From positions 124,001 through 188,000 of the forward strand of contig DAIDGQ010000045.1 of NCBI GenBank assembly GCA_027452215.1: DNA of 64,000 nt. The letters are read 5' to 3'. Source of the DNA: Granulicella sp. (lineage in GTDB: Bacteria; Acidobacteriota; Terriglobia; Terriglobales; Acidobacteriaceae). Below the pieces are notes generated by a model. That model searched no databases, had not been told where the DNA came from, and saw nothing but the letters and a program-made list of their open reading frames with translations. Positions 7,599-38,318 of the stretch are shown one piece after another; the first letter of the stretch is position 1; each line of letters starts with the position of its first letter. Position numbers and translations under genes: made by a program.

Positions 7599-8609
7599 AT
7601 GACGGTTAGGCTGAAGGATATTGCGCAGGACCTGGGCGTCTCGACTGTCACGGTCTCGAAGGTGCTTCGAGGCAGTCCGGATATTGGCGACGCAACGCGG
7701 GCGCGTGTGCTGCAACGTATGAAGGAGCTGAAGTACCAGCCCAATATGCTGGCGCAGGCATTGGCGAGCGGGCAGTCGTTTGCGGTGGGACTGGTGGTGC
7801 CGGATCTGGTCCATCCATTCTTCGCAGAGCTGGCAAAGTCGCTGGGTGAGACGTTGCGGAAGAGTGGATTTGCGCTGATGCTGGCGTCGTCGGAAGAGGA
7901 CCCGGAGATTGAGCGAAATGAGATTCGGACGATGCTGAATCGGGGGATGGACGCGATCGTTGTGGCGTCGTGCCAGCCGCACACGATGACACGGCCGTTG
8001 CTCGGGAGCAATGACACTCCGGTGGTGCTTCTGGATCGGCGCTTTCGGTCGCTGAAGGCAAACTTTGTGGGATGCGATGACGTGATGGCCGGCGAACTGG
8101 CGACACAGCATCTGCTGGCAACGGGACGAAGGCGCATTGCGCACATCGCAGGCACGAGCAACAGCCCGTCGATCGATCGGCTGCGTGGATATCAGAGGGC
8201 GCTGGCAACGGCCGGGGTGCGCGTACCCAAGAATTATGTGGTGACGCGTGAACGGGTGGAAGAAGCGGGCGACCTGGCCGGCTATCAGGCGATGCAGGAG
8301 CTGCTCTCGTGCCGGGTGCGGCCCGATGCCGTGTTCTGCTACAACGACCTTACGGCCATTGGCGCCATGCAGGCTGCCATGGATGCTGGCCTGTCGATTC
8401 CCGGGGAGATCGCGTTTGTTGGTTGCGGGAATCTTCGCTACGCGCGGTATCTGAAGGTGCCGCTGACATCGCTCGACCAGGCGACTGCCCGCATGGGTGC
8501 GATGGCGGGAGAGTTGGCGATTGGCCTGGCGCGGACTCCGCATCAGCCGACGCAGGTAAAGCTGCTGGAGCCAACTCTGATGGTACGAGCGTCCAGCGCA
8601 GTGGCGTAA
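7599..8609 (+). CDS. LacI-family transcriptional regulator
   Basis: This 336-residue repressor has an N-terminal LacI helix-turn-helix (RLKDIAQDLGVSTVTVSKVL), the hinge region around KYQPNMLAQAL, and a periplasmic-binding-protein-like effector domain (VGLVVPDLVHPFF, RIAHIAGTSNSPSIDRLRGY, PDAVFCYNDLTAIGAM). The ATG at 7599 is chosen over a GTG 33 bases earlier because GGAGAGCGG directly precedes it and it begins exactly at the HTH. It follows the transporter by about 50 bases on the same strand. It likely responds to a sugar or sugar acid and may bind the palindrome at 5917-5932. Confidence 0.9.
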   Translation: MTVRLKDIAQDLGVSTVTVSKVLRGSPDIGDATRARVLQRMKELKYQPNMLAQALASGQSFAVGLVVPDLVHPFFAELAKSLGETLRKSGFALMLASSEEDPEIERNEIRTMLNRGMDAIVVASCQPHTMTRPLLGSNDTPVVLLDRRFRSLKANFVGCDDVMAGELATQHLLATGRRRIAHIAGTSNSPSIDRLRGYQRALATAGVRVPKNYVVTRERVEEAGDLAGYQAMQELLSCRVRPDAVFCYNDLTAIGAMQAAMDAGLSIPGEIAFVGCGNLRYARYLKVPLTSLDQATARMGAMAGELAIGLARTPHQPTQVKLLEPTLMVRASSAVA

Positions 8610-8663
8610 CGGTTGAGGCGGTTAGAGGGGTTGCCCGAGCTGGGAGAGTGCATCAGCGGCGGG

Positions 8664-9131
8664 CTAGAAGGGTGCCAGAAGGGCGAAGGCGCCCCCCTCG
8701 TAGCCATCGATTTTGACGTTGAAGAAGCTGGAGTAGCAGGGATCTCGAAGAGTGCTTCGCGCGTCCGCGGGCATGGAACTCGGGTCGGAGAACATGCCTT
8801 TGAAGATGGCGCGGTGTTCAAGGGAGACGACTCTCGAGGCAATGTTCATCACTTCATTGAGCGCGTCTCTTAGAGATTCGTCGGGCGTAGGCTCTGCCAC
8901 ACGCTCTTTGATGGCTTCCGGGGATAGACCGATAAGAGCTCCGGCAAACGAGCTAAGCAGCATTGTGTCCGCGCGGATGACCCGGGTGCTTTCCATCGGC
9001 TTGACGAGATAGACGCAGTAGATCTGGTCCTGCTTGACCGTGGCTGGATGGGACTGCTCGGAGAAGCTGACAGGATGTCCGATCAGATCCGTGAATAGCC
9101 GGGTCATGCAAGAAGCGGATGGCTCTGACAT
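8664..9131 (-). CDS. CheX/CheC-like chemotaxis-associated protein, paralogue 1
   Basis: I do not recognise a named family for this 155-residue soluble protein, but it is clearly paralogous to the protein at 17841-18308: MSRLF/MSKLF-like start, KPM(E/D)STRVI(R/K)AD, LLxSFAGALIGL, EVMNIASR(V/I)VSLE and a GGAF(A/S)LLAP C-terminus. EVMN within an amphipathic helix (ALNEVMNIASRVV) resembles the ExxN dephosphorylation signature of CheC, CheX and FliY, and a proline follows about 20 residues later, as in CheX. It follows a CheY gene with 3 bases between, using a ribosome site inside the CheY end, and shares its sigma-28 promoter. A CheY-P phosphatase or adaptor role is inferred. Confidence 0.6.
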   Translation of the reverse strand: MSEPSASCMTRLFTDLIGHPVSFSEQSHPATVKQDQIYCVYLVKPMESTRVIRADTMLLSSFAGALIGLSPEAIKERVAEPTPDESLRDALNEVMNIASRVVSLEHRAIFKGMFSDPSSMPADARSTLRDPCYSSFFNVKIDGYEGGAFALLAPF

Positions 9132-9134
9132 GGT

Positions 9135-9503
9135 CTAATTCCCTCCCAGGATAGGATCGAGCGCAGCCTGAACGTCATCGACGTTGAAGGGCTTGACGAT
9201 GATGAAGCTTGCACCGTGGCTCATGGCGACGTCTTTGAATTTCTTTGAGGCCTCTGAAGTGATGAAGCCGAAGGGAGTGTGATTATTTTGCTCCCGTAGC
9301 GTTCTCAGGAAGTCGATGCCGGACATCTCCGGCATATTCCAGTCGGAGAGAATTAGCCTGGGCTTGACGGACTTCAACTTCTCGAGTGCGTCGGCACCGT
9401 TCTCCGCCTCGCAGACGGTGAGGTCCCGATACCCTGCTTGTCGAATCGCGCGATGTACGAGCAGCCGCATCGTTTTGCTATCGTCCACCAAAAGTAGATC
9501 CAT
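9135..9503 (-). CDS. CheY-like single-domain response regulator
   Basis: This is a 122-residue stand-alone receiver. Acidic pocket D7-D8, phospho-acceptor D54 (SDWNMPEMSG) and K104 (IVKPF) are all present, with T/S switch residue in ITSEAS. A longer reading from 9563 is open, but the sigma-28 -10 box covers 9564-9571, so that start would not be on the transcript; the ATG at 9503 with AAGGA upstream starts exactly at the first beta strand. It is the first gene of a two-gene minus-strand cassette with the CheX-like protein, divergent from cheA. It likely carries phosphate from CheA to the motor or acts as a phosphate sink. Confidence 0.9.
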   Translation of the reverse strand: MDLLLVDDSKTMRLLVHRAIRQAGYRDLTVCEAENGADALEKLKSVKPRLILSDWNMPEMSGIDFLRTLREQNNHTPFGFITSEASKKFKDVAMSHGASFIIVKPFNVDDVQAALDPILGGN

Positions 9504-9563
9504 GGCCTCAATGTCCTTCCGTGTTCCTGTAATGCCAGGCGCGATTGGCGCTGTCACGGACAT

Positions 9564-9591
9564 CTATCGGCTCAACCGATGAAGTTGTTCA
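9564..9591 (-). promoter_or_regulatory. Sigma-28 (FliA) promoter for the cheY/CheX-like cassette
   Basis: On the minus strand the sequence reads TGAA, 16 bases, GCCGATAG. This fits the FliA consensus TAAA-N15-GCCGATAA with one mismatch in each core and one extra spacer base. The same architecture precedes other late flagellar genes in this window. Its position fixes the translation start of the CheY at 9503. Confidence 0.75.
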
Positions 9592-9695
9592 GTGGCTCCC
9601 TATCGAGTTTCGCGTGCGGATACCTCTCTGGTGCAATTTATTAGCTCCCGAAACAGACCGTGTTTTGGCTGGAAGAGAGTCCCCACTTCGGCGAG

Positions 9696-9723
9696 TTGAA
9701 TTTTCCTGAGGATTTGCCGATAG
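9696..9723 (+). promoter_or_regulatory. Sigma-28 (FliA) promoter for the che operon
   Basis: TTGA (9696-9699), 16 bases, then GCCGATAG (9716-9723). The -10 box is identical to those of the other sigma-28 sites here; the -35 is a weaker match to TAAA. It lies 80 bases before the cheA start at 9804 and makes the upstream in-frame ATG at 9660 untranslatable from this message. Confidence 0.72.
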
Positions 9724-9803
9724 AGCACCCATCGGATGGACACCGCCGCAGTGACCTCGAAGAGAGTGGCTCATTGTGTGGCGCGTGGAAGGGGAAAGGG
9801 ATC

Positions 9804-12479
9804 ATGGACGACACGTGCTTGGAAGACAGAGAGATGATTCGGGAGTTCCTGGTCGAGAGCTATGAAAATCTAGCGCGGCTGGATCAGGATCTCGTTGAAC
9901 TCGAACGGCACCCCCTGGATGCAAATCTGCTTGGAAGCATCTTCCGAACTATTCACACCATTAAGGGAGCTTGCGGCTTCCTGGCATTTACGACACTGGA
10001 GGGGATCACGCACCAGGCAGAGAGTCTGCTGAGCCAATTGCGCGATGGCAAGAGAGAGCTTAATCCGGGTCTGGTTTCCCTGATTCTGGAGACCGTGGAT
10101 GCGACGCGAAAGGTGTTGGGTTCTATTGAAGCCAGTGGCGCGGAAGGCTCGCTGCAGTTTGGAGACCTGACTAACAGGTTACGGGTTGAAGCGGAGGCAA
10201 TTCATGATGATGAGAGTGGGTCGGCTCCCGACCAGGTTGCAAATGCTGCCACGAATGATCCTGAGGCAGAAGCCGGGGGCAACAGCGACCAGTCGCAGCT
10301 TGCCCAAGAGGAGCTCCCAAAGATAGAGAAGCGATCTGGAGAGCGAAGGGGAGGAGACCGACGGGAGGATGAGGGTGTGCCGCATTCCGCAGCGGTGGAC
10401 TCAAACATTCGAGTTGGGGTGGGGCTGCTGGATAAGCTGATGGATCTGGTAGGTGAGCTTGTGCTGACCCGTAACCAGATTCTGCAGTTCAATACCGAGC
10501 GTGAAGATCCGGCGCTCAACGCAACCTCGCAACGGCTAAACCTGATAACGACGGAGCTGCAGGAAGGCGTGATGAAGACACGTATGCAGCCTATTGGAGT
10601 GGTGTGGAACAAGCTGCCACGCGTGGTGCGAGACATCTCGGTTGGGCTTGGCAAACAGATTCAGCTTCACATGGATGGAGCGGAGACGGAGCTTGACCGA
10701 ACCATTATCGAAGCAATCAAGGATCCACTGATGCACCTGGTTCGTAACTCGTGCGATCACGGCGTTGAATCACCCGAGGTGCGGATGCGGGCGGGCAAGC
10801 CTCCGCAGGGAGTTCTAACGCTTCGCGCGTACCACGAAGGCGGACAGGTCAACATCGAGGTTGGAGATGACGGAGCCGGGATTGATGTTGCGCGGGTGAA
10901 GCAGAAGGCTATTGAGCGAGGGATTCTGCGGCCCGAACAAGCGGAGAAGCTGGGGGACAGAGAGGCACTGAGTCTTATCTTCGAGCCGGGATTTTCTACT
11001 GCCCAGACGGTGACGAATATCTCCGGACGCGGGGTTGGCATGGATGTGGTGAAGTCCCACATCGAGAAGATTGGCGGCGTGGTTGATCTATACAGCCGAC
11101 CCGGGGAAGGGGCCACGGTCAAGATCAGGATTCCACTCACCCTGGCGATTATTCCGGGCCTGGTGATTATCAGCGGAGGGGAACGTTTCGTGATTCCGCA
11201 GGTGAGTCTTCTCGAGCTCATTCGCCTTGAGGGAGATTCGGCTGGAAAGCATATCGAATATGTACACGGGACTCCGGTCTATCGCCGCCGCGGGAGCCTG
11301 CTTCCCATCACATACCTGAATCAGGTGCTGGGGTTGAAATCGACCGTCGGAGCTGAGGCAGTCAACATGGTGGTCCTGCAGGCGGAGGATCGGCAATTTG
11401 GGCTGGTCGTCGACGGAATTTACGACACGCAGGAGATTGTGGTCAAGCCTCTTGGCAAGCAATTGAAGGGGCTGACACTCTATGCGGGCGCGACGATCAT
11501 GGGTGACGGCCGCGTGGCGCTCATCCTTGACGTTCTGGGCATTGGTCAACGGTCTGGAGTGTTTGGTGAGTTGCGCGAATCGGCACGTGTGGTGGATAAG
11601 CAGAAGGCTCAGTCAACCATGGAGCAGCAGCGGTTGCTTCTGTTCCGGAGTGGCTCGTTCGACAGGTTGGCTGTGCCGCTTTCTCTGGTGGCCCGGCTGG
11701 AAGAGTTTCCTCAATCGGCGATTGAACATGCTGGCGGTGGACAGGTCGTGCAGTATCGCGAACGCATTCTCCCCCTGGTCTCTCTCCGCGCCGTGCTGGA
11801 GTCTGGTGCTTCTGACGAGGGAATGGCCGCCGATCCGGTGCAGGTGGTCGTGTTCAACGACGGCGACATAAGCGTTGGCATGGTCGTGGACCAGATTCTC
11901 GATGTTGCCGAGGAGGCAGTCACTGTACGACAGAAGTCCGGCCGCAAAGGTCTGCTAGGGTCGGCGGTTGTGGGCAAGCGTGTCACTGATTTCCTCGATC
12001 TCAATCTGGTGCTTCGTGAGTCAAAGCAAGCCTGGTCCGCAGGTGCAGATGAGCACGCGAGAGGAAAGACGGTGCTCGTCGCGGATACTTCGGCTTTCTC
12101 GCGAGGCATGATCCGAGGAGGCCTGGATATGGCGGGCTATTCGGTCGTTGAGGCGGCAAATCTGGATGAGGTGATGCGCAAGCTGGAGCAGCAGACAGTG
12201 GATGTCATTGTCACCGCGCTGGAGCTGCCCCCCAACGGCAGCTCGTCTTTGCTGACCGCCCTTCGTGCAAGGCCTGAACTGAGGAGGATTCCGATCCTGG
12301 CGCTGGTGGATTCATTCGATCCGGTCCGAATATCTGCGGCCCAGACTGCTGGCTTTGAAGACTGCCAGGCAAAGTTCGACGGGCTGCTGGTCCTCGAGTC
12401 TGTGGCGAGGCTGGTTTCGCCAAAGGCGGTTGTCGAGGCGACAGCCGAGTGTGTGGGTTGTGCAGTAGAGGTGAGGTAA
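9804..12479 (+). CDS. cheA: CheA chemotaxis histidine kinase with second CheW-like domain and pseudo-receiver
   Basis: This 891-residue kinase phosphorylates CheY and CheB in response to the receptor. The order is HPt (1-110, phosphorylated H51 in RTIHTIKGACGF), a variable linker, dimerisation helices (about 205-265, NIRVGVGLLDKLMDLVGELV), HATPase (N box HLVRNSCDHG, G1 GDDGAGI, G2 GRGVGMDVVK), a CheW-like domain, a second CheW-like domain (about 610-740) and a receiver-like domain (754-891). The last domain keeps D761 and K857 but has A805 where the acceptor Asp should be (IVTALELPP), so it cannot be phosphorylated in the usual way. No dedicated P2 is recognisable. Start ATG 9804 lies after the sigma-28 promoter. 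Confidence 0.95.
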   Translation: MDDTCLEDREMIREFLVESYENLARLDQDLVELERHPLDANLLGSIFRTIHTIKGACGFLAFTTLEGITHQAESLLSQLRDGKRELNPGLVSLILETVDATRKVLGSIEASGAEGSLQFGDLTNRLRVEAEAIHDDESGSAPDQVANAATNDPEAEAGGNSDQSQLAQEELPKIEKRSGERRGGDRREDEGVPHSAAVDSNIRVGVGLLDKLMDLVGELVLTRNQILQFNTEREDPALNATSQRLNLITTELQEGVMKTRMQPIGVVWNKLPRVVRDISVGLGKQIQLHMDGAETELDRTIIEAIKDPLMHLVRNSCDHGVESPEVRMRAGKPPQGVLTLRAYHEGGQVNIEVGDDGAGIDVARVKQKAIERGILRPEQAEKLGDREALSLIFEPGFSTAQTVTNISGRGVGMDVVKSHIEKIGGVVDLYSRPGEGATVKIRIPLTLAIIPGLVIISGGERFVIPQVSLLELIRLEGDSAGKHIEYVHGTPVYRRRGSLLPITYLNQVLGLKSTVGAEAVNMVVLQAEDRQFGLVVDGIYDTQEIVVKPLGKQLKGLTLYAGATIMGDGRVALILDVLGIGQRSGVFGELRESARVVDKQKAQSTMEQQRLLLFRSGSFDRLAVPLSLVARLEEFPQSAIEHAGGGQVVQYRERILPLVSLRAVLESGASDEGMAADPVQVVVFNDGDISVGMVVDQILDVAEEAVTVRQKSGRKGLLGSAVVGKRVTDFLDLNLVLRESKQAWSAGADEHARGKTVLVADTSAFSRGMIRGGLDMAGYSVVEAANLDEVMRKLEQQTVDVIVTALELPPNGSSSLLTALRARPELRRIPILALVDSFDPVRISAAQTAGFEDCQAKFDGLLVLESVARLVSPKAVVEATAECVGCAVEVR

Positions 12480-12482
12480 CGA

Positions 12483-12962
12483 ATGGCGAATGATATGACG
12501 GCGACCAAATCAATGGCAACGCATACGAGCGGTCAGTTCTCCACCTTCTTTGTGGCGGACCTCTTCTTCGGAGTGGATGTTCTTCACGTGCAGGAGGTGT
12601 TGCGTTCTCAACACATGACTCCTGTCCCACAGGCACCGGAGGTGATTGAAGGACTGATCAATCTTCGGGGCCAGATCGTAACTGCGATCGATATGCGGCG
12701 AAGGCTTCTTCTGCCACCGAATACGGCAGATCAGGCGTCGATGAACATGGTGGTGCGCACGGCAGATGGTGCTGTGAGCCTGCTGGTCGACGAGATCGGA
12801 GATGTGCTGGATATGGACGTCTCCACCTACGAACAACCTCCTGAGAATCTTGCTCCTGCCGCAAGAGACCTCATTCGAGGAGTTTACAAACTCAAGGACC
12901 GATTGCTTCTGGTGCTCGACGAGGAGCGAACGGTAGATCTCACTGTCGGGAGGGTGGCCTAG
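12483..12962 (+). CDS. cheW: CheW chemotaxis coupling protein
   Basis: This 159-residue adaptor couples chemoreceptors to CheA. It has the usual CheW beta-barrel signatures: FFVADLFFGVDVLHVQEVLR, PEVIEGLINLRGQIVTAIDMR and SLLVDEIGDVLDM, ending in LLLVLDEER. It begins 3 bases after the cheA stop, so the two are co-translated within one operon. Length and motifs are normal. Confidence 0.95.
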   Translation: MANDMTATKSMATHTSGQFSTFFVADLFFGVDVLHVQEVLRSQHMTPVPQAPEVIEGLINLRGQIVTAIDMRRRLLLPPNTADQASMNMVVRTADGAVSLLVDEIGDVLDMDVSTYEQPPENLAPAARDLIRGVYKLKDRLLLVLDEERTVDLTVGRVA

Positions 12963-13122
12963 TGGCGCGCAGCCGGCACAGCGAATCACGGACCAAACAA
13001 GCGGAGTAGATCGTGGCGAACATTCAATGAAACGGGTTGACGTTTGCCAGACAAAGTAAGCCTGGAACGCAGGCATGGTAGCGACATAACAGAGCAGCAC
13101 GGATGGCTAGGAGCTAGACGAA

Positions 13123-14829
13123 ATGGCAATGCAAGCAAGCAACGGTCGGCAGGGATCGTCCCACCGAAATTCATCCAACGGCGTAGCCGTTTTGGATCGC
13201 CCAGAGACTCACGAGAAAGATGAACTGCTTCAGGATGAGATCTTGAGGCTGGTTCGCGCATCGCAAGAGGGACGGCTCGACGAGCGAGGCAAGGTAGAGA
13301 ACTTCGATGGCCCGTCGCGCGGAATCATTGAAGGCATAAACGCTATGCTTGACGCGATTCTTTTGCCGATCGGTGAAGGCAACCGAATTTTAGCGCAAAT
13401 CTCTGATGGCAAGGTCGACGAGCTGATTGCTCAAACCTACAGAGGCGATCACGAGAAGATGAAGCAGGCGGTCAATAACGTTGCTGTCGTGATTCAGGAG
13501 TTGCAGTCCGAGTTGCGTAGACTTACCACGGCGTCCAGGGATGGCCAGCTCTCTGAACGCGGCAAGCCTGATCAGTTCAGGGGAGCATACGCGGACATTG
13601 TGACAGGCGTTAATACGATGCTCGACGCTATTCTTTTGCCGATCGCCGAGGGTAATCGCATTCTCTCTATGATCCGTGGGGGCGACCTTCGCGAGAGTGT
13701 TGAGATCCCCTGCAAGGGCGATCACGAGAAGATGAAGAACGCGATCAATGGCGTGCATCAATGGCTGAGCGAACTCGTCGCATATGTGACGAAGATCGCT
13801 AATGGCGACCTGACTGCGTCCATGGCGACTGCTTCGGACAAGGACCAGATTCACGAGTGGCTCTTGATGTTGAAGTCAAACATTCACTCGCTGATTGTAG
13901 ACACCGACATGCTTGCGAAAGCGGCTGCGGAAGGAAAAGTAGGCACTCGCGCTGATGCACGCAAGCACACCGGAGATTATCGCAAGATTATTGAAGGCGT
14001 GAATCAGATGTTGGAGGCTGTTTCTGCTCCACTGAAAGCTACGGCAGAGAGTGCCAGCACGCTCGCCTCATCGTCCGAAGAGCTCACTGCGGTGAGCCAG
14101 CAGATGGCGGGCAACGCGGAAGAGACAGCGGTCCAGGCGAATATTGTGTCGGCAGCCAGCGAGCAGGTATCGCGCAATGTTGCTTCCGTCGCTACGGCCT
14201 CGGAAGAGATGCAGGCCTCGATTCGTGAGATCGCAAAGAATGCAAATGACTCTGCGCGGGTTGCAAAGAATGCGGTGAGCGTCGCTCAATCAACCAACGA
14301 GACGATGAAGAAGCTGGGCATCTCCAGTCAGGAGATTGGGAACGTGATCAAGGTGATTACCTCGATCGCACAACAGACCAACCTGCTGGCTCTGAACGCA
14401 ACCATCGAGGCTGCCCGGGCCGGTGAAGCAGGTAAGGGCTTTGCGGTTGTGGCCAATGAGGTCAAGGAGCTCGCCAAGCAGACTGCCAAGGCCACAGAGG
14501 AGATCAGTCAGAAGATCGAAGCGATTCAGGGAGTGACCAAAGGTGCGGTCACAGCGATTGAAGAGATCGGAACGATCATTAACCAGATCAACGATATCTC
14601 GAACAGCATTGCCTCGGCGGTAGAGGAACAAACGGTGACAACCAATGAGATCGGCCGAAGTGTGACCGAAGCAGCACAGGGGGTCAGCGATATTGCAAAG
14701 AACATCGGCGGTGTTGCTACGGCAGCGAAGAACACCACGCAGGGAGCGAATGACACGAAGACCGCTTCCCTGGAGTTGAGTGAGATGGCGGCGCGGCTCC
14801 AGGCGTCCGTATCCAAATTCACGTTTTGA
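13123..14829 (+). CDS. Cytoplasmic methyl-accepting chemotaxis protein with duplicated HAMP-like modules
   Basis: This 568-residue receptor has no hydrophobic segment and no signal peptide, so it is a soluble chemoreceptor, as FrzCD is. The N-terminal half holds two tandem copies of a module of about 85 residues (near 41-125 and 131-215), sharing GxLxERGKxxxF, NxMLDAILLPI(G/A)EGNRIL and GDHEKMKxA(V/I)N. A HAMP-like stretch and an EGVNQMLEAVSAPL segment follow. The C-terminal half is the signalling coiled coil with tip motif TNLLALNATIEAARAGE and flanking methylation helices. AGGAG lies 9 bases before the ATG. It is the only receptor in the window and sits inside the che operon. Confidence 0.93.
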   Translation: MAMQASNGRQGSSHRNSSNGVAVLDRPETHEKDELLQDEILRLVRASQEGRLDERGKVENFDGPSRGIIEGINAMLDAILLPIGEGNRILAQISDGKVDELIAQTYRGDHEKMKQAVNNVAVVIQELQSELRRLTTASRDGQLSERGKPDQFRGAYADIVTGVNTMLDAILLPIAEGNRILSMIRGGDLRESVEIPCKGDHEKMKNAINGVHQWLSELVAYVTKIANGDLTASMATASDKDQIHEWLLMLKSNIHSLIVDTDMLAKAAAEGKVGTRADARKHTGDYRKIIEGVNQMLEAVSAPLKATAESASTLASSSEELTAVSQQMAGNAEETAVQANIVSAASEQVSRNVASVATASEEMQASIREIAKNANDSARVAKNAVSVAQSTNETMKKLGISSQEIGNVIKVITSIAQQTNLLALNATIEAARAGEAGKGFAVVANEVKELAKQTAKATEEISQKIEAIQGVTKGAVTAIEEIGTIINQINDISNSIASAVEEQTVTTNEIGRSVTEAAQGVSDIAKNIGGVATAAKNTTQGANDTKTASLELSEMAARLQASVSKFTF

Positions 14830-14836
14830 CGGATGG

Positions 14837-14873
14837 GCCCTAAGGGTTAGCCAACCGGGCTAACCCTTAGGGC
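14837..14873 (+). terminator. Strong hairpin between mcp and cheY
   Basis: A perfect 16-bp inverted repeat (GCCCTAAGGGTTAGCC, 5-base loop, and its complement) lies 7 bases past the receptor stop and 17 before cheY. No T-run follows, so it is not a classic intrinsic terminator. It could act as a partial terminator or an mRNA 3'-end stabiliser that lowers expression of cheY-cheB-cheR-cheX relative to the genes before it. Confidence 0.6.
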
Positions 14874-14890
14874 ACGAAAGTAGACAACAA

Positions 14891-15274
14891 ATGCCCAAGG
14901 CACTGATTGTGGACGACTCGAGGACGATTCGACTTATCCTCCGGCGGATATTGGTAGAGATGGGATACGAGGTTTGCGAGGCAGCCAACGGACGGGAAGC
15001 TCTTGCTGCGATCGAGACAGAACGCGCCGTGAGTCTGGTTCTGACGGACTGGAATATGCCGGAGATGAATGGCCTGGAGCTAGTGAAGCGACTGCGCCAG
15101 AATCCTGAGCTCGCGTCGCTTAGGGTAGTCATGGTGACAACCGAGACGGAGCTGGGCCACATGGTTCTCGCCCTGGACGCAGGAGCGAACGAATATGTGA
15201 TGAAGCCTTTTACGAAGGACATCCTCAAAGAGAAACTTGAGCTTGTTGAACTTGGCGCCCGGGCAGGTGCGTAA
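14891..15274 (+). CDS. cheY: CheY chemotaxis response regulator
   Basis: This 127-residue single-domain receiver has every catalytic residue: D8 and D9, acceptor D53 (LTDWNMPEMNG), the T83-T84 switch (VTTET) and K105 (VMKPF). Phospho-CheY would bind FliM/FliN and change the direction or speed of flagellar rotation. It lies between the receptor hairpin and cheB, which starts 2 bases after its stop. It is similar to, but distinct from, the minus-strand CheY at 9135-9503; which one speaks to the motor is not shown by sequence. Confidence 0.93.
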   Translation: MPKALIVDDSRTIRLILRRILVEMGYEVCEAANGREALAAIETERAVSLVLTDWNMPEMNGLELVKRLRQNPELASLRVVMVTTETELGHMVLALDAGANEYVMKPFTKDILKEKLELVELGARAGA

Positions 15275-15276
15275 CT

Positions 15277-16392
15277 GTGGCGTCAATTAATCAGCGGCTG
15301 CTTCAACCGGGCGAACGAGTTCGCGTGATGGTGGTGGATGACTCGGTGGTCATCCGTCGGCTCGTGACGCAGGCTCTGGAGCAAGACCCGCTGCTTGAGG
15401 TCGTGGGCACTGCGTCAAATGGTGCGATCGGCCTGCAGCGTATTCCACAATTAAATCCCGACGTGATTACGCTCGATATTGAGATGCCGGACATGGACGG
15501 CCTGGAGATGCTGAGACGCCTTCGGAGAGAGTATCCCAAGCTGCGGGTGATCATGTTCAGCACGCTTACGGAACGAGGCGGGGCGAAGACACTCGAGGCC
15601 CTGACGCTCGGAGCCGATGATTATGTCGCGAAGGTATCGAACGAAGGATCGTTGGATAGGTCGATGATCCGCTTGCGGGAAGAGATGATCCCGAAGATCA
15701 AGCAGTTCTTTCGCCAGGAGCAAGAGAGCAGAGCAGTGGTACCGCCTGATGCGGCGAGTACATGGCAGATACCTGAGACCGGGCTGAGAACGTACTCAGC
15801 AGGGACAGCAAAGGTGAGGCCTAACGTCGTTGTGATTGGGGTGTCCACGGGAGGGCCAACGGCACTAGGCACAATCCTTCCGGAGCTGCCACCCGACTTC
15901 CCCTTGCCGATACTTGTGGTGCAGCACATGCCACCCCTCTTCACAAGGCTCCTCGCGGAGAGGCTTAATTCGACCTGTCAGTTGCCGGTCGGAGAGGCAC
16001 ACCAGGGCTGCGCGGTTGAGCCGGGCGAGATATTGATTGCCCCTGGAGATTTTCACATGAGGCTGGTCGCGAGCGGGGGCGTGGTGAAGGTGACGCTGGA
16101 TCAGTTACCACGGCAAAACTCCTGCCGGCCTGCAGTCGATGCGCTATTTGCGTCGACAGGCGAAGTGTATGGCGGTGCGGCGTTGGCGATCATTCTCACT
16201 GGCATGGGCCAGGATGGATTGCGCGGAGTAGAAATCCTCCGGGCGCGAGGAGCGAGCGTACTGGCACAGGACGAAGCGTCAAGTGTGGTGTGGGGTATGC
16301 CTGGTGCTGTAGTCAATGCTGGTCTTGCTGATCGCGTATTACCACTCAACGAAGTTGTACCCGAGATTCTTCGCCGCACTTATAGAAATTAG
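15277..16392 (+). CDS. cheB: CheB receptor methylesterase/glutamine deamidase
   Basis: This 371-residue two-domain enzyme removes methyl groups from receptor glutamates for adaptation. The receiver has D21-D22, acceptor D67 (TLDIEMPDMDG) and K119 (VAKVSNEGS). The C-terminal esterase shows the catalytic triad S190 (GVSTGGPT), H217 (VQHMPP) and D313 (GMGQDG). The start is GTG, 2 bases after the cheY stop and in the only sensible position. It is paired with cheR downstream, as expected of an adaptation module acting on the single soluble receptor encoded here. Confidence 0.96.
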   Translation: MASINQRLLQPGERVRVMVVDDSVVIRRLVTQALEQDPLLEVVGTASNGAIGLQRIPQLNPDVITLDIEMPDMDGLEMLRRLRREYPKLRVIMFSTLTERGGAKTLEALTLGADDYVAKVSNEGSLDRSMIRLREEMIPKIKQFFRQEQESRAVVPPDAASTWQIPETGLRTYSAGTAKVRPNVVVIGVSTGGPTALGTILPELPPDFPLPILVVQHMPPLFTRLLAERLNSTCQLPVGEAHQGCAVEPGEILIAPGDFHMRLVASGGVVKVTLDQLPRQNSCRPAVDALFASTGEVYGGAALAIILTGMGQDGLRGVEILRARGASVLAQDEASSVVWGMPGAVVNAGLADRVLPLNEVVPEILRRTYRN

Positions 16393-16402
16393 GAATGACT
16401 TT

Positions 16403-17236
16403 ATGGAGACCCAAAGACAAAAGACGGAGATCCTCCCGGAGAACTACCGATTTCTCCAGCAGCATGTCTATTCCCAAGTGGGTATCGTGCTTGAAGACAA
16501 CAAGCATTACCTCTTCGAGAGTCGCCTTGCGCCGATCGTCAAGCAACTTGGATTGGACTCCATGAACGAGTTGTGTGCGCTGCTGAATGCAAGGCGCAAC
16601 CCTGATCTCGGCCATCTGGTGGCTGAGGCAATGACAACAAACGAGACTTACTTTTTTCGCGACCCATCCCACTATGAGGCGATACGAAAGATCCTATTGC
16701 CGAAGCTCAAGGAGGAAAGGGGGACAAACAAGACGTTACGATTCTGGTCGGCCGCTGCATCGACCGGGCAGGAGGCGTACAGCCTTGCGATGCTGTTACT
16801 TGAAGAGCAACTGGAGAGCTGGAAGATTGAGATTCTGGGCACAGACTTTTCCGCAAAGGTACTGGAGCGCGCGCGCGCAGGAACGTTTCAGCAAATAGAA
16901 GTAAACAGGGGATTGCCCGCAAATCTTTTGGTAAAGCATTTCAATCGTTGCGGACTGGACTGGCAGTTGAGTGATGCGGTCCGCAGGATGGTGCGATTTG
17001 AAACGATCGACCTCCGTAAGAGCATGTCGACACTAGGGCCGTTTGACCTTGTGTTTTGCCGCAACGTGATGATCTATTTCGATAACGAGACCAAGCGGAG
17101 CATCATGAAAGAGATTCACGGAACCCTTACGAAGGGCGGATGGCTGCTACTCGGCGGAGCAGAATCCGCGTTTGGCGTGGAAGAGTGGTTTGAGCGATTG
17201 GCCGTAGGAAATTTGATCGTATATGTGGCTCGATGA
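16403..17236 (+). CDS. cheR: CheR chemotaxis receptor methyltransferase
   Basis: This 277-residue S-adenosylmethionine-dependent enzyme methylates receptor glutamates. An N-terminal helical domain (about 1-85) precedes the Rossmann-like domain with the SAM motif SAAASTGQEAYSLAM and the FDLVFCRNVMIYF strand-helix typical of the family; LLGGAES lies near the end. The ATG at 16403, 10 bases after the cheB stop and preceded by AGGAA, is preferred over in-frame codons inside cheB. The normal SAAC(S/A)TGEEP motif is altered to SAAASTGQEA, a mild deviation. It overlaps cheX by 4 bases (ATGA). Confidence 0.95.
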   Translation: METQRQKTEILPENYRFLQQHVYSQVGIVLEDNKHYLFESRLAPIVKQLGLDSMNELCALLNARRNPDLGHLVAEAMTTNETYFFRDPSHYEAIRKILLPKLKEERGTNKTLRFWSAAASTGQEAYSLAMLLLEEQLESWKIEILGTDFSAKVLERARAGTFQQIEVNRGLPANLLVKHFNRCGLDWQLSDAVRRMVRFETIDLRKSMSTLGPFDLVFCRNVMIYFDNETKRSIMKEIHGTLTKGGWLLLGGAESAFGVEEWFERLAVGNLIVYVAR

Positions 17237-17694
17237 AGGTGCGTATGCAAGCTGAGATAGAGCTGGAGATGGTGGAAAGAATTGTGACGTCCGTATTCGT
17301 CACGATGTTGGATCTTTCTGTAACTAGAAGCTGGACTGGTCATCAGCCTGGAGCGAGCCGCATGACCTCATTTGTACAGATGACGGGCGATTGGAATGGA
17401 GCGGTATTGCTGGAGTGCAGCGCGAGACAGGCCTGCCTGTTCGCGGGGCGGATTCTGGCCATGGAACCTCCTGATGTTGTGGACGACGGAGTTCGCGACG
17501 CATTGGGAGAGTTGGCTAATGTGATTGGAGGCAACCTGAAGTGCGGCATGTCGACGGGAGTGCGCCTTTCCATGCCTTCGGTGATGGATGGCATCGACTA
17601 CGATCGTCGAGCTTGGGGATCGGAGATTCGGGATAGGCTTACCTTCCAGTCCTCTCAGGGCTACTTCTGGGTGACGATCCTCGAAGCTGCGTAA
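17233..17694 (+). CDS. cheX: CheX-type CheY-P phosphatase
   Basis: This 153-residue protein has the CheX signature DALGELANVIGGNLK, in which E and N of ExxN attack phospho-CheY, and a proline downstream (MPSV). CheX is known to dephosphorylate CheY in Borrelia and Thermotoga. It ends the plus-strand che operon, overlapping cheR by 4 bases. An earlier ATG (17233) begins the reading frame; M5 is an alternative. The operon has no CheZ or CheC, so CheX is the most likely signal-terminating enzyme here, possibly with the two CheX-like paralogues on either side. Confidence 0.85.
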   Translation: MKVRMQAEIELEMVERIVTSVFVTMLDLSVTRSWTGHQPGASRMTSFVQMTGDWNGAVLLECSARQACLFAGRILAMEPPDVVDDGVRDALGELANVIGGNLKCGMSTGVRLSMPSVMDGIDYDRRAWGSEIRDRLTFQSSQGYFWVTILEAA

Positions 17695-17840
17695 GGCTGG
17701 ATTGATCGTTGCTCGAAGACGTTCAGGGAGCTCGGGAGGATGCAGGAGAGCGACGAGAGAAGGATTCGCTATGCGCATTGGAACGCTGCTGCGATGGTCC
17801 GGTGGAGAGTGAAGATCATGGCTAGCGTTGGCGCCTTAGA

Positions 17841-18308
17841 CTACCAGGGCGCGAGGAGAGAGAAGGCTCCTCCTTCATACGAATCGATCGTGACCTTGAA
17901 GTAGCTGGCAGAACCGGGATCGCGCAGGGTCTTAAGTGCATCTGTCGGAAGACCGACTGAGCTTGGATACATGCCCATGAAGACAGCGCGGTATTCCAGG
18001 GATACGATCCTTGACGCGATGTTCATCACCTCATAGAGCGAGTCTCTGAGAGCTTCGTTCGGTCTGGATTCGGCTACGCGCTCCTTGATGGATTCGAGGG
18101 GGAGCCCAATCAATGCACCGGCGAATGACGTAAGAAGGGGCACATCTGCCTTGATGACACGCGTACTGTCCATCGGCTTGATTAGATAAACGGAATAGAT
18201 CTGCTTTGCAGTGGTGGAGACGGGATATTGCTGTTCGGAAAAGGTGACGCGCTGTCCGGTCAGGTCGGAGAAAAGCTTGCTCATGGCAATGGAAGATGTT
18301 TCAGCCAT
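17841..18308 (-). CDS. CheX/CheC-like chemotaxis-associated protein, paralogue 2
   Basis: This 155-residue soluble protein is the paralogue of that at 8664-9131, with the same length and nearly collinear motifs (FSEQQYP, KPMDSTRVIKAD, SFAGALIGLP, EVMNIASRIVSLEYRA, GGAFSLLAPW). The ExxN helix again suggests a CheC/CheX-type fold. It converges with cheX and is translated 3 bases after the 64-residue ORF, from a transcript that starts at the sigma-28 box near 18578. Its identity as a second phosphatase, or as a motor or receptor adaptor, cannot be decided from sequence. Confidence 0.6.
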   Translation of the reverse strand: MAETSSIAMSKLFSDLTGQRVTFSEQQYPVSTTAKQIYSVYLIKPMDSTRVIKADVPLLTSFAGALIGLPLESIKERVAESRPNEALRDSLYEVMNIASRIVSLEYRAVFMGMYPSSVGLPTDALKTLRDPGSASYFKVTIDSYEGGAFSLLAPW

Positions 18309-18311
18309 TGC

Positions 18312-18506
18312 CTAACTCCCCTGCGGGCTTTCCGATAGATTCCAATCGGAGCGGAGTGGCTCTGCTGTGGAAGATCTGAGGACAAGCGTTCCCACTTGAT
18401 GATTCGTCCGGGTAGCACCAAGCAATTCTACGCATCTGGTTGAGCGGATGACACGATTCAGGGAGAGTCGAATAGATTCGGTAGCTTCCAGACGCAGTAA
18501 AGTCAT
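18312..18506 (-). CDS. Small protein of unknown function in a sigma-28 cassette (64 aa)
   Basis: This 64-residue ORF is not recognised. It is judged real because AGGAGGAG lies 9 bases before its ATG, it follows a sigma-28 promoter by about 70 bases, and it ends 3 bases before the CheX-like gene. The protein is basic in the first half (LEATESIRLSLNRVIRSTRC) and has a short beta-prone stretch (HQVGTLVLRSS). It has no membrane segment. It is not CsrA. Being first in the transcript, it occupies the position that CheY holds in the sister cassette at 9135-9503. A role in chemotaxis or motor control is an inference from position only. Confidence 0.55.
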   Translation of the reverse strand: MTLLRLEATESIRLSLNRVIRSTRCVELLGATRTNHQVGTLVLRSSTAEPLRSDWNLSESPQGS

Positions 18507-18577
18507 TGCGATGATCTCCTCCTGTATTGGCGTGAGAGAGCTAGAGCTTACAAACTCCCACGCACCTTCATAACCAT

Positions 18578-18605
18578 CTATCGGCTAATCGGTGAAGTTC
18601 ATCAG
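18578..18605 (-). promoter_or_regulatory. Sigma-28 (FliA) promoter for the 64-aa/CheX-like cassette
   Basis: The minus strand carries GCCGATAG (18585-18578) with CTGA 16 bases upstream (TGAT at 15). The -10 and its flank (AGCCGATAGATG) match the promoter of the sister cassette at 9564. The -35 is poor. The rest of the 585-base gap 18507-19090 holds only this promoter and the divergent one at 18879. Confidence 0.6.
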
Positions 18606-18878
18606 TAGTTTGGGTTCCAGCCAGCGACGCGCGCAGGCGCAGGCAGGCCGTCGCTGAAGCGCCACGACCACAGGAACAGCGGATCGGAGCGCTGGACTAT
18701 GCTCCCGGCTTGGTCTAAGGAAGCGAGTATCTGTAGGTTGCGAAGTCACCAATCACGTGAGATCGCGGGAGGGTTGGGCACTCGTTTGAAACGGTGGTAG
18801 CGATCGAGCAGGACGGCAAACTTGATAGAGACGTAACGGCAAGAGAGATGCGCGAGTTCGAGGCAGACCCGACCTCGC

Positions 18879-18906
18879 TAGAGTTTTCACGTGGATTTGC
18901 CGATAG
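18879..18906 (+). promoter_or_regulatory. Sigma-28 (FliA) promoter for the first stator operon
   Basis: TAGAGTTT (extended -35; consensus TAAAGTTT), then GCCGATAG 16 bases after the TAGA core. This is one of the best matches in the window and lies 185 bases before the motA-like gene. No convincing gene is seen between 18507 and 19090. Confidence 0.78.
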
Positions 18907-19090
18907 AGTCGCCATTGGATCTCTGTTGGGAAAGCTTGCGTTGCTGAAGCGGCAAAGGCTTATCGGGAAGGGCTATTGATGAATGAATGGATTGAAATAG
19001 TGGCTGACGAGACGGGCGGAGATTGGGGGACAACCTAGAGAGATCCCGGCACTACGCCATTGGTTAGGCTTGAGGCGGTCACGGCAATGA

Positions 19091-19891
19091 ATGGACATCA
19101 GAGATATGGCGCTGGATAAAAGCACATTTGTGGGCATAGCGATTGCGTTGATTGGAGTCGGGGTCGGCTCTGTGCTTGAAGGCAGCAAACTGGTTCAACT
19201 GTTGCAACCGACCGCCGCCTTGATCGTTCTTGGGGGCACCATTGGGGCTGTGATGGTGCAGTTTCCCTCTCGTATTGTGCTTCAGGCGCTGGTGCAGTTG
19301 AAGGGTGTTTTTTTGAATACAGAGCCGGGACCCGATCATCTGGTTCAGCATTTGCTGCGCTATGCCTACAAGGCTCGCAGGGATGGACTTCTTTCGCTGG
19401 ATGCAGAGTTGGCGAAGATTCAAGATCCATTTTTGAAGGACAGCCTGATGTTGGCGATCGACGGAGTGAGCTCTGCGGATCTTCGCAAAATGATGGAGTT
19501 GCAGCTCGACTATGAGGGCGAAACGGATGAGCGAATTCCCAAGGTCTTCGATGCAGCCGGGGGGTTTGCTCCTACCTTTGGAATTATCGGGGCGGTACTG
19601 GGGTTGATCCAGGTGATGCAGCGATTACAGGATATTAATGCAGTTGGCAAGGGGATTGCGGTTGCATTCGTAGCCACAATCTATGGCGTTGGTTCAGCAA
19701 ATCTCTTCTTCCTGCCGTGGGCTGGAAAGTTGAGAATTCGGCTGCGCGAGAGACAAGTTGTTAAGGAGATGACACTTGAAGCGGTGCTGGCCATCGTTGA
19801 AGGAGTAAATCCGCGAGCTCTTGAACTGCAGTTGAACAGCTATGTTACTGCGCCTCCGCGGCAATTACTGGAGAAGGTGGTTACTCAATGA
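19091..19891 (+). CDS. MotA/PomA-family stator subunit (first stator pair)
   Basis: This 266-residue inner-membrane protein forms, with its partner, the ion channel that drives the motor. It has the MotA/TolQ/ExbB layout: two N-terminal helices, a cytoplasmic loop with charged residues (AYKARRDGLLSLD, MELQLDYEGETDERIPKVFDAAG), then two C-terminal helices with the conserved prolines (FAPTFGIIGAVLGLI and LPWAGKL). The sequence is closer to the MotC/PomA/MotP type than to the long E. coli MotA. The ATG at 19091 follows GAGGCGG. It overlaps the motB-like gene by 4 bases. Whether it moves H+ or Na+ is not decided by sequence. Confidence 0.9.
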   Translation: MDIRDMALDKSTFVGIAIALIGVGVGSVLEGSKLVQLLQPTAALIVLGGTIGAVMVQFPSRIVLQALVQLKGVFLNTEPGPDHLVQHLLRYAYKARRDGLLSLDAELAKIQDPFLKDSLMLAIDGVSSADLRKMMELQLDYEGETDERIPKVFDAAGGFAPTFGIIGAVLGLIQVMQRLQDINAVGKGIAVAFVATIYGVGSANLFFLPWAGKLRIRLRERQVVKEMTLEAVLAIVEGVNPRALELQLNSYVTAPPRQLLEKVVTQ

Positions 19892-20670
19892 GGCGCAGGA
19901 GAAGAGGTGTCGCAGAGCCAGTGGGCCAAGATCGCTGGATGGTCTCGTACGCGGATTTTATTACCGTGCTCTTCGCTTTTTTTGTTGTGCTGTTCGCAAC
20001 GCTCAATCAAGACAACCTTGCGATCAGCAAAGTGTCGCGTGCCATCCATAATGGATTCCAGAATTTGGGGCCGTTCTCTGGTGGGGAGAGTGACATGGGA
20101 GCCGCGCGGCTGAATCTTGAACGGGATGCATCGACGTATAGTCTCCCGGTCCAGCCAGCGAAGATAAATAAGAGTGATGCGACGGAGGCAACAGGCGTCG
20201 ACATTGCGGAACTACGGAGACAACTTGAACTGGCTATCGGCAAGGAGCTTCGGGATGGTGAGGTTACGATCCGTGTGACACCCGAGGGATTCGTGATCAG
20301 TTTGAGGGAGCTCGGCTTTTTTAGCAGTGGCCAGGCGACCCTGCGGCCCGGAGCGGCAGAGAAGATTGAGCGCATTGCCAAGGTGTTGTCGCAACACGGA
20401 TTCAATCTTCGAGTGGAGGGGCATTCGGATAATCAACCAATTCACACGGCTGAATTTCGTTCGAACTGGGAGCTGTCCACGGCGCGCGCGATGGCAGTGC
20501 TACTGATGCTGGTGAACCATTCTGGGCTTGATCCGAGTCACATCTCGCTGGCAGGGTATGGGGAAGAACGACCCATTGCGGACAACTCGACGGCGGAGGG
20601 CCGCAAGCAGAACCGGCGGGTTGATTTAGTCGTGGTTGCAGGGGTTTTGCCTGATCGTCGGGGACCCTAG
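19888..20670 (+). CDS. MotB/MotD-family stator subunit (first stator pair)
   Basis: This 260-residue protein anchors the stator to peptidoglycan. A short basic N-terminus is followed by a single membrane helix (WMVSYADFITVLFAFFVVLF), whose D23 corresponds to the ion-binding Asp32 of E. coli MotB. The C-terminal OmpA-like domain includes LRVEGHSDNQPI, RSNWELSTARAMAVL and GYGEERPIADN, which bind diaminopimelate. It is translationally coupled to the motA-like gene. The second stator pair begins 124 bases downstream under its own sigma-28 promoter. Confidence 0.9.
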   Translation: MRRRRRGVAEPVGQDRWMVSYADFITVLFAFFVVLFATLNQDNLAISKVSRAIHNGFQNLGPFSGGESDMGAARLNLERDASTYSLPVQPAKINKSDATEATGVDIAELRRQLELAIGKELRDGEVTIRVTPEGFVISLRELGFFSSGQATLRPGAAEKIERIAKVLSQHGFNLRVEGHSDNQPIHTAEFRSNWELSTARAMAVLLMLVNHSGLDPSHISLAGYGEERPIADNSTAEGRKQNRRVDLVVVAGVLPDRRGP

Positions 20671-37346: not shown

Positions 37347-38318
37347 CTATTCCATCCCCCAATTCGTGAGCCGAGTTCTGCGGCCAAGTTGTGCTGCTTT
37401 TTTCGAGCCATTCCTGACGGGTTGAGCCTCGAATATATCCAGCCCTTCGACCGTCAACATCCCAGGAGTCCGGACCGGGGCTCGCAGCTTCAAGAGACAG
37501 CCCGGTTGAAGCGCAATCAGGTCCCGCACGGAGACCTTCATACGGGGAAGGCCCGCCTCAACAAGCACGTCACAATCGAGAACTCGCTCACTGATACTCG
37601 GGATGGGGAGATACCTGAATCCTCCCTTACGTTGGGGCTCTTCGGACTTGATTTGCTTGAGAAGAACATTGAGAAATGAAGTTGGAAAGACGAGTTGGAA
37701 GGTTCCCTTCGTGCCTGCAATTTCCACCTGAAACTTAACCGAGGTGACCTTCTCGTTGGGAGGACAGTACTGGTGCAGAAGAGAGGACTTGGTTCGGCGG
37801 CTTGGCAATAAAGCGAGCTTGGGGATACGCCACGCATGCTCCGCTTGCCTAGCAATGACTGCGGTGACATCCTGCATGATCTCTTCTTCAATCTCCGAGA
37901 GTTCGCGCGGAGTGCTGACTGATGCTCCTCTTCCCCCCAGAAGCAGTTCTACAATCGGAAACACCAGATCCAGATCGCACTCCACGATCACGGCCCCGGG
38001 CATAGTGCTGAGGGAAAATGGGACGACGTAGCTGAGTGCAGGAATGCCCGCAATATGTTCGGCGAGGGGAAGCTGATCGAGCGCTTGGAGCTTCACCTCA
38101 AGACCGGTCCCCAGATAAACATCGAGGGCGCTCGCGAGTTGGCGCGCGAAGGTCTCATGAATCGCCGTCAGAGAACGTGCGCTCTCGTTCGACAATCGTC
38201 CTGCAGAGCGAAAGTTGCACGCTTGAATGGATCGCGATTTGATCGTTACTTTCTTCTTGACGACATGTTCTGATGCGCTGACCGTTTCCTCTGCTGATTC
38301 TGTATTAGGCGTGTTCAT
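37347..38318 (-). CDS. fliM: Flagellar motor switch protein FliM
   Basis: This 323-residue C-ring protein binds CheY-P and sets rotation direction. The middle domain (about 35-225) has the CheC-like pseudo-dimer fold with FARQLASALDVYLGTGLEVK and ELLLGGRGASVSTPRELSEIE; the C-terminal SpoA domain carries LPRMKVSVRDLIALQPGCLLKL. The N-terminal CheY-binding EIDALL-type peptide is not recognisable, since the first 30 residues read VSASEHVVKKKVTIKS. AGGAG lies 6 bases before the ATG. It overlaps fliA by 14 bases. Confidence 0.93.
   Translation of the reverse strand: MNTPNTESAEETVSASEHVVKKKVTIKSRSIQACNFRSAGRLSNESARSLTAIHETFARQLASALDVYLGTGLEVKLQALDQLPLAEHIAGIPALSYVVPFSLSTMPGAVIVECDLDLVFPIVELLLGGRGASVSTPRELSEIEEEIMQDVTAVIARQAEHAWRIPKLALLPSRRTKSSLLHQYCPPNEKVTSVKFQVEIAGTKGTFQLVFPTSFLNVLLKQIKSEEPQRKGGFRYLPIPSISERVLDCDVLVEAGLPRMKVSVRDLIALQPGCLLKLRAPVRTPGMLTVEGLDIFEAQPVRNGSKKAAQLGRRTRLTNWGME

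Follow-up and report, generated by a model that had tools for sequence, protein, structure and literature searches.

Introduction

The closest described counterparts of the proteins discussed here are phosphatases of the CheX type, which act on CheY-P, the phosphorylated form of the chemotaxis response regulator. PMC3035606 describes how N99 of CheX and an acidic residue enter the active site of CheY, and PMC3510030 gives the ExxN motif as required. In Sinorhizobium meliloti, according to the abstract of PMC4214558, one kinase works with two response regulators, one of which is a phosphate sink. Here, we describe a stretch of 64,000 nucleotides from Granulicella sp. (G000:C45:124001-188000, hereafter the window; its genome assembly is 59% complete) in which a che operon has a short minus-strand cassette on either side. 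Cassette A consists of a cheY gene followed by the gene for a 155-residue protein, X_A; cassette B has a 64-residue open reading frame (ORF) followed by the gene for a second 155-residue protein, X_B. Each cassette probably is, or once was, a two-gene module made up of a second CheY and its own CheX-like phosphatase.

A CheX-Related Family Missed by the Domain Databases

X_A (8664-9131, minus strand) and X_B (17841-18308, minus strand) are 62% identical over 155 of 155 residues with no gap, and are therefore paralogues, as a first-pass annotation of the window had proposed for the two minus-strand ORFs that it placed around the operon. Both carry D89, E93 and N96 in the arrangement D-x3-E-x2-N. 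The EVMN string that the same annotation saw in a helix of each protein does lie in a predicted helix, residues 85-102, in both. Neither protein was given a chemotaxis family by Pfam or NCBIfam, and assignments to DUF6976, RHH_1, GerD or other families were rejected as weak matches of single members. Relatives were gathered into 24 X rows (alignment A3), several loci of one gene being merged; a 36-residue tail in genome G116, a second match in G243 (a 41-residue tail at a contig end) and a copy in G449 with four in-frame stops were not counted as full copies. The curated cut-off of the Pfam CheX model, PF13690, is reached by none of the 24, the best match having an E-value of 0.049 and 14.1 bits against the 27 needed.

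Two kinds of evidence place these proteins, as follows. The first is the fold. AlphaFold2 (AF2) models of X_B and X_A, each built from the same three sequences, have predicted local distance difference test (pLDDT) values of 79.2 and 78.7 and predicted template modelling scores of 0.75 and 0.76, respectively. When these were compared with the PDB by Foldseek, 34 chains (X_B) and 36 chains (X_A) matched at E ≤ 1e-3, all of them CheX, CheC, CheC-like, FliY, FliM or flagellar switch-rotor entries, with chain identity read from the listing and some entries being complexes. The first unrelated structures appear only at E 0.2 and 0.09, respectively. A fold unrelated to CheC/CheX was thus predicted for neither protein.

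The second kind of evidence is homology between profiles. The 24 X rows were aligned by hhalign with 23 CheX rows from related genomes, a set made of those 22 of 29 CheX loci that phmmer found with the window CheX, plus the window CheX itself, which is so counted twice. The probability is 88.8, with an E-value of 2.5e-6 and 15% identity, and the alignment pairs DSLYEVMN of X_B with DALGELAN of the window CheX, laying the EVMN helix on the ExxN helix of CheX. Reversed profiles gave 1.4 and 3.3, the best of 200 column shuffles gave 4.5, and removal of the most distant X member left the probability at 84. The X profile reaches 58 with FliM middle domains and 0.13 with CheY, and CheX reaches just 20 with FliM; X therefore stands between CheX and FliM, nearer to CheX. 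The motif D/S-x3-E-x2-N is found in 23 of the 24 X proteins, in 19 of the 23 CheX rows and in none of 20 FliM middle domains; the exception among the X proteins, the second copy in G181, has S-D-N. X_A and X_B have a single E-x2-N each, and no X member has two motifs.

By predicted fold in both proteins and by detectable homology, X_A and X_B belong to the CheC/CheX/FliY/FliM superfamily, and Pfam and NCBIfam miss them. The CheX/CheC-like identity suggested earlier is supported on both counts. In the titles and abstract openings of open-licence works, we found no description of the X family.

The Partner CheY

A cheY gene lies directly upstream of the X gene in 21 of the 24 rows, cassette A of the window included, and the other 20 upstream CheYs share 45-97% identity with the cassette A protein. 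The cassette A gene (9135-9503, minus strand; PF00072, E 2.8e-25) most likely starts at the ATG at 9503, giving 122 residues, and not at the ATG at 9563, which would give 142, because its relatives have 121-122 residues and the upstream ATG overlaps a promoter motif. The product is 37% identical to the main CheY of the operon (14891-15274, plus strand). Of the 21 known cassette CheYs, eight were aligned, and all of these have D7, D8, D54, T82 and K104. At a position that is Tyr in the main CheY, and that we take to be Y106 of E. coli CheY, these eight have I, L, V or F, the residue in cassette A being Ile. The gene is under strong conservation, with a nonsynonymous divergence (dN) of 0.024 to its counterpart in G292. 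The partner in an intact cassette is a distinct CheY subfamily that retains the phosphorylation residues.

The three rows that lack an upstream CheY are cassette B of the window and the second copies in G181 and G228; for the latter two, no CheY match was found within the fetched flanks. In several genomes, a canonical CheX comes immediately after the pair, so that the order is CheY-X-CheX (L012 6297-6746, L015 7195-7638 and L084 8485-8880).

Distribution and Co-occurrence

X was found in 8 of 150 genomes of the family sample by a single-sequence search, in 20 of 298 genomes of the order sample (19 with a full copy, and G116 with its tail only), and in 8 of 396 genomes of the phylum sample, a count that takes in the G116 tail and the broken G449 copy. 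Within the window's family, probably Acidobacteriaceae, the pair of CheY and CheX-like protein is sparse; outside it, the phylum has one clear case, in G489, which belongs to a different family, and a Comamonadaceae plasmid also carries the pair. The first-pass description of the system as lineage-specific thus holds in that the pair is rare and was found for the most part in that family; the view that it is strictly confined to one family is rejected because of G489 and the plasmid.

On the Comamonadaceae plasmid, the pair is part of a che operon, and the X profile gives 63 bits for what is there called a “hypothetical protein”. The partner response regulator scores 144 bits, and the operon's other response regulator 72, to a CheY profile of 10 rows (8 cassette CheYs, the main CheY and the 64-residue ORF). 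A tblastn search of plasmids with the Comamonadaceae X protein returned that protein alone, and a Novosphingobium plasmid match (E 0.06) was dropped, there being no annotated chemotaxis neighbour within 5 kb. A pattern-based scan of genome contigs matched Granulicella aggregans alone. Two further observations concern the plasmid protein. Its operon encodes, after the pair, a 153-residue protein with no Pfam family (L088 8438-8899), and the X protein itself has a weak match, at 4.6e-6, in another family of the phylum (G708:C318:28068-28385, L091).

The pair keeps company with acidobacterial che systems, for which co-occurrence had been proposed as a check. In the order sample, CheA (PF02895) is present in all 19 full-copy genomes and in 234 of 298 overall, so that 19 of 234 CheA-positive and 0 of 64 CheA-negative genomes have the pair (Fisher 0.017); FliG is present in 18 of the 19 and in 177 of 298, with the pair in 18 of 177 FliG-positive and 1 of 121 FliG-negative genomes (Fisher 0.001). 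Within the window's genus, 8 of 9 genomes with CheA have the pair, as against 0 of 13 without (Fisher 2.8e-5). For FliG, the counts in the genus are 7 of 12 genomes with it and 1 of 10 without (Fisher 0.03). All four values ignore kinship, and absence of CheA or FliG here means no match to one Pfam model. The idea that the pair follows CheA and not flagella is weakened by these numbers, CheA being the better predictor in the genus and FliG at least as good in the order sample. The pair is thus associated with chemotaxis signalling, and most of the genomes concerned are flagellate.

Several genomes stand out. G206, which is rated 100% complete, has CheA, CheX, the CheY-X pair and an upstream GCCGATAG (L073, G206:C20:128000-144000) with no match to FliG or FlhA, and possibly has a non-flagellar chemotaxis system. 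G064, G140, G198 and G283, all of the window's genus, have FliG, no PF02895 match and no pair; FlhA was found in G064 and G140, the two tested, and these four may have flagella without CheA. The X tail of G116, 36-42 residues long (L017 7313-7438), lies in a genome with no CheA match and is perhaps the relic of a lost che operon.

Origin of Cassette B

Three blocks are common to the two cassettes and collinear in them. One is the X gene, another is a 33-nt stretch (85% identical) at the minus-strand promoter, and the third is a 40-nt stretch (80%) at the promoter on the plus strand. The 33-nt block contains GCCGATAG, a sigma-28-like −10 element, at 9564-9571 in cassette A and at 18578-18585 in cassette B, both on the minus strand. 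The 40-nt blocks (9698-9737 and 18881-18920) surround plus-strand copies of the same element, at 9716-9723 upstream of cheA and at 18899-18906 upstream of motA. Since the 40-nt block is also shared, the repeated unit seems to span the 155-residue gene through both divergent promoters. The distance between the promoters is about 170 nt longer in cassette B (18586-18898) than in cassette A, which nearly offsets the length lost from the CheY gene. Given the three shared blocks, cassette B is likely a segmental duplicate of cassette A, both promoters included, in which CheY was then truncated and X_B stayed intact.

The arrangement in other genomes bears on this. G292 has cassette A alone, in the same divergent layout, and the pair of G489 is likewise divergent from cheA. 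G217 and G243 have an intact CheY-X pair before motA, and the window occupies both places. It could be, then, that cassette B is the orthologue of the pre-motA cassettes of G217 and G243 and not a duplicate of A. The phylogenetic tree leaves room for this, X_B lying unresolved inside a supported five-member clade and so open between the two groups, and promoter consensus could account for part of the shared promoter blocks, which are short and include the common GCCGATAG motif. However, the window's cassette B matches the G243 and G217 regions in the X gene and nowhere else at E below 0.1, its nearest row by path in the tree is that of cassette A, and the three blocks it shares with A are collinear. 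We therefore regard orthology as unlikely, if still deserving of attention. The motA promoter of G292 differs from that of the window.

Function of the CheY-X Pair

Given its family and its motif, X is most likely a CheY-P phosphatase for the second CheY, by analogy with CheX. The first-pass annotation spoke of a phosphatase or an adaptor; the part of that reading that concerns the family is supported by fold and profile match, and catalysis would follow by analogy. We suggest the following scheme. Both CheYs, the main one and that of the cassette, would receive phosphate from CheA. X would place Glu93 and Asn96 in the active site of the receiver and hydrolyse the cassette CheY-P, as published for CheX. 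The pair would then drain phosphate from CheA, or end a second, short-lived CheY signal. X_B, which has no intact CheY of its own, might act in trans on the cassette A CheY or on the main CheY.

A number of points weigh against this proposal. The Pfam CheX model matches just 1 of the 24 X members, and that below the cut-off; a profile search of PDB sequences with X gave 0 matches. The predicted folds rest on few sequences, and the five models of each job range in confidence from 79 to 41 and from 79 to 43. For both models, the best Foldseek E-values belong to FliM middle domains and not to CheX, and the query template modelling scores to CheX entries are just 0.46-0.57. Because the operon has a canonical CheX, it is not evident why a second phosphatase would be needed, and the choice of the neighbouring CheY over the main CheY as the target of X comes from gene pairing alone. 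Lastly, G326, a genome of the genus with CheA, has no pair, nor do 215 of the 234 CheA-positive genomes of the order sample; the pair is therefore dispensable.

Alternatively, X could be a CheX that is redundant or used under particular conditions and has the main CheY as its chief target; its place next to a second CheY would then be a matter of history. That X_B is intact without an intact CheY, and that the lone copies of G181 and G228 have no CheY match in their fetched flanks, would fit such a role. Redundancy with CheX does not, however, predict pairing, and a CheY is kept directly upstream in 21 of 24 Acidobacteriota copies and on the Comamonadaceae plasmid; the cassette CheY is itself strongly conserved, as its low dN to G292 attests. 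We judge this explanation to be improbable.

Still less probable, in our estimate, is a role for X as an adaptor or output partner of the cassette CheY in the manner of FliM, binding CheY-P at the motor or at another target and not hydrolysing it. The Foldseek ranking of FliM middle domains points in this direction, as does the intermediate position of X, whose hhalign probability with FliM is well above that of CheX with FliM. The presence of FliG in nearly all full-copy genomes is as expected of a motor partner, and G206, with the pair, CheA and CheX and no FliG or FlhA match, makes another output possible. Against it stand the catalytic motif, kept in all X proteins but one and found in none of the FliM middle domains, the stronger match of X to the CheX profile (88 vs 58), and the size of X, a single 155-residue domain with no room for the other domains of FliM.

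Returning to the phosphatase proposal, it is tempting to carry it further. X may be an unnamed branch of the CheX-FliM superfamily, placed between CheX and FliM in profile space, that has specialised in hydrolysing its own partner CheY. The two would form a transferable module for signal termination, a phosphate drain, with members in Acidobacteriota and on a Burkholderiales plasmid. In the lineage of the window, a phosphatase copy freed from its CheY may work in trans. We offer this extended scheme tentatively, as something short of an even chance.

The 64-Residue Open Reading Frame of Cassette B

The first gene of cassette B (18312-18506, minus strand) was noted earlier as differing from that of cassette A and as a protein of no known kind. 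The genes do differ, and the ORF is most likely a truncated and decayed N-terminal half of a cassette CheY, to judge from a shuffle-tested alignment and a profile score. It aligns with residues 1-59 of the cassette A CheY without gaps, at a score of 60 that none of 2000 shuffles equals, and a profile built from 15 cassette CheYs of other genomes gives it 10.6 bits, the best of 1714 reported shuffles reaching 5.7. SDWN, with the phospho-Asp, is retained. The ORF is not an intact receiver domain: E-A replaces the acid pocket D7-D8, the C-terminal half with K104 is absent, and there is no Pfam match. The dN between the ORF and the cassette A CheY is 0.79, and that between X_A and X_B is 0.27, with a synonymous divergence (dS) of 1.9 for the X genes; dS is near 2, and saturated, in both comparisons. 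From the two dN values, X_B appears to have stayed intact while its CheY decayed. The ORF, which has an AGGAGG upstream, may act as a translational leader for X_B.

It is very unlikely that the ORF is an unrelated short gene or a chance frame, even though BLASTP against the cassette CheY gave nothing (E 16), tblastn found the ORF itself alone, Pfam and NCBIfam gave no family, the profile score is weak in absolute terms and the comparison with the main CheY is not significant (63 of 2000 shuffles score as high), since neither set of shuffles reaches the observed scores and the ORF lies, SDWN retained, at the place of the cassette CheY between promoter and X. A full-length collinear CheY relic, with no deletion in cassette B, was suggested by the equal spacing of the outer blocks (9177 vs 9183 nt). 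It is not favoured, because the 33-nt promoter block aligns shifted and the ORF aligns to the start of CheY.

Promoters and the Surrounding Operon

As claimed in the first-pass annotation, a GCCGATAG element precedes both cassettes. The window has 8 occurrences against 1.77 expected, and none of 100 shuffles had as many, the largest number being 7. PMC2859248 gives the E. coli sigma-28 consensus as TAAAGTTT-n11-GCCGATAA. Judged by that consensus, a GCCGATAA-like −10 element is present in 16 of 22 cassettes: GCCGATA occurs within 160 nt upstream in these 16 and in none of the other 6, the 22 stretches being those of all X rows except two lone copies and including close relatives, among them three of genus g32. 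Of 10,500 random 160-nt stretches taken from these loci, 199 (1.9%) contain GCCGATA. On the −35 side, inspection by eye finds CT(G/C)A(A/T), not TAAA, with spacing constant to one base, in 11 of the 16. The genome encodes two sigma factors of the FliA/WhiG type above cut-off, at G000:C45:162371-163030 (38371-39030 of the window, minus strand) and at G000:C35:101993-102655. In G292, some 3 kb separate the counterpart of the second from cassette A.

The operon between the cassettes has the order cheA-cheW-MCP-cheY-cheB-cheR-cheX and is followed by motA-motB, all on the plus strand. The cheA gene (9804-12479) encodes a C-terminal receiver domain; its likely start is the ATG at 9804, the mechanical ORF running from a GTG at 9660. 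It is followed by cheW (12483-12962), the gene for a methyl-accepting chemotaxis protein (MCP) with HAMP_2 repeats (13123-14829), the main cheY, cheB (15277-16392) and cheR (16406-17236, start as in the queries; the mechanical ORF runs from 16316). The last gene is a canonical cheX (17233-17694; PF13690, E 9.5e-17), which agrees with the earlier statement that the operon already has its own CheX. Beyond cassette B lie motA (19091-19891) and motB (19888-20670). Cassette A is divergent from cheA; cassette B lies tail-to-tail with cheX on one side and is divergent from motA on the other. The two had been called mirror cassettes, which is wrong, as both are on the minus strand in one common orientation. 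The earlier observation thus stands in part: the paralogues, the EVMN helix and the promoter motif are sound, the mirror layout is not, and the 64-residue gene is most likely no unknown. A search for known RNA elements in 8000-20000 of the window gave 0 matches at gathering score.

Comparison with Known Systems

With this locus, chemotaxis gene sets gain a family related to CheX that goes unreported by Pfam and NCBIfam, and a second CheY that repeatedly comes paired with what is probably a phosphatase of its own; duplication seemingly left one phosphatase without its CheY. The partner specificity of CheY phosphatases therefore becomes directly testable here. Profiles lying between CheX and FliM may also help to trace how the motor switch is related to the phosphatases.

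The likeness to the Sinorhizobium meliloti phosphate sink is that one kinase would face two response regulators, and a sink role for the window's pair is suggested by that analogy. The two systems differ in that no CheX-type phosphatase is named for the S. meliloti sink in the abstract of PMC4214558.

CheC and FliY share the fold class of X, and 1xkr, 2f9z and 4hyn are among its Foldseek matches. X has one catalytic motif, whereas CheC has two; FliY, unlike X, carries a FliN-like domain. The FliM middle domain (PF02154) is alike in predicted fold, in giving the best Foldseek E-values, and in its hhalign probability of 58. X differs from it in having the catalytic motif and in being a single domain of 155 residues; the window encodes FliM separately (37656-38216, minus strand).

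The solved structures of CheX are homodimers. Compared with CheX (PF13690; Thermotoga maritima 1xko and 1squ; Borrelia burgdorferi CheX-CheY 3hzh), X differs in being missed by the Pfam and NCBIfam models, in its 15% profile identity, in usually lying directly downstream of its own CheY and, in the window, in co-existing with a canonical CheX. It is like CheX in forming a single domain of about 150 residues with the same predicted fold, in having one D/S-x3-E-x2-N helix that aligns with the ExxN helix, and in its che operon context.

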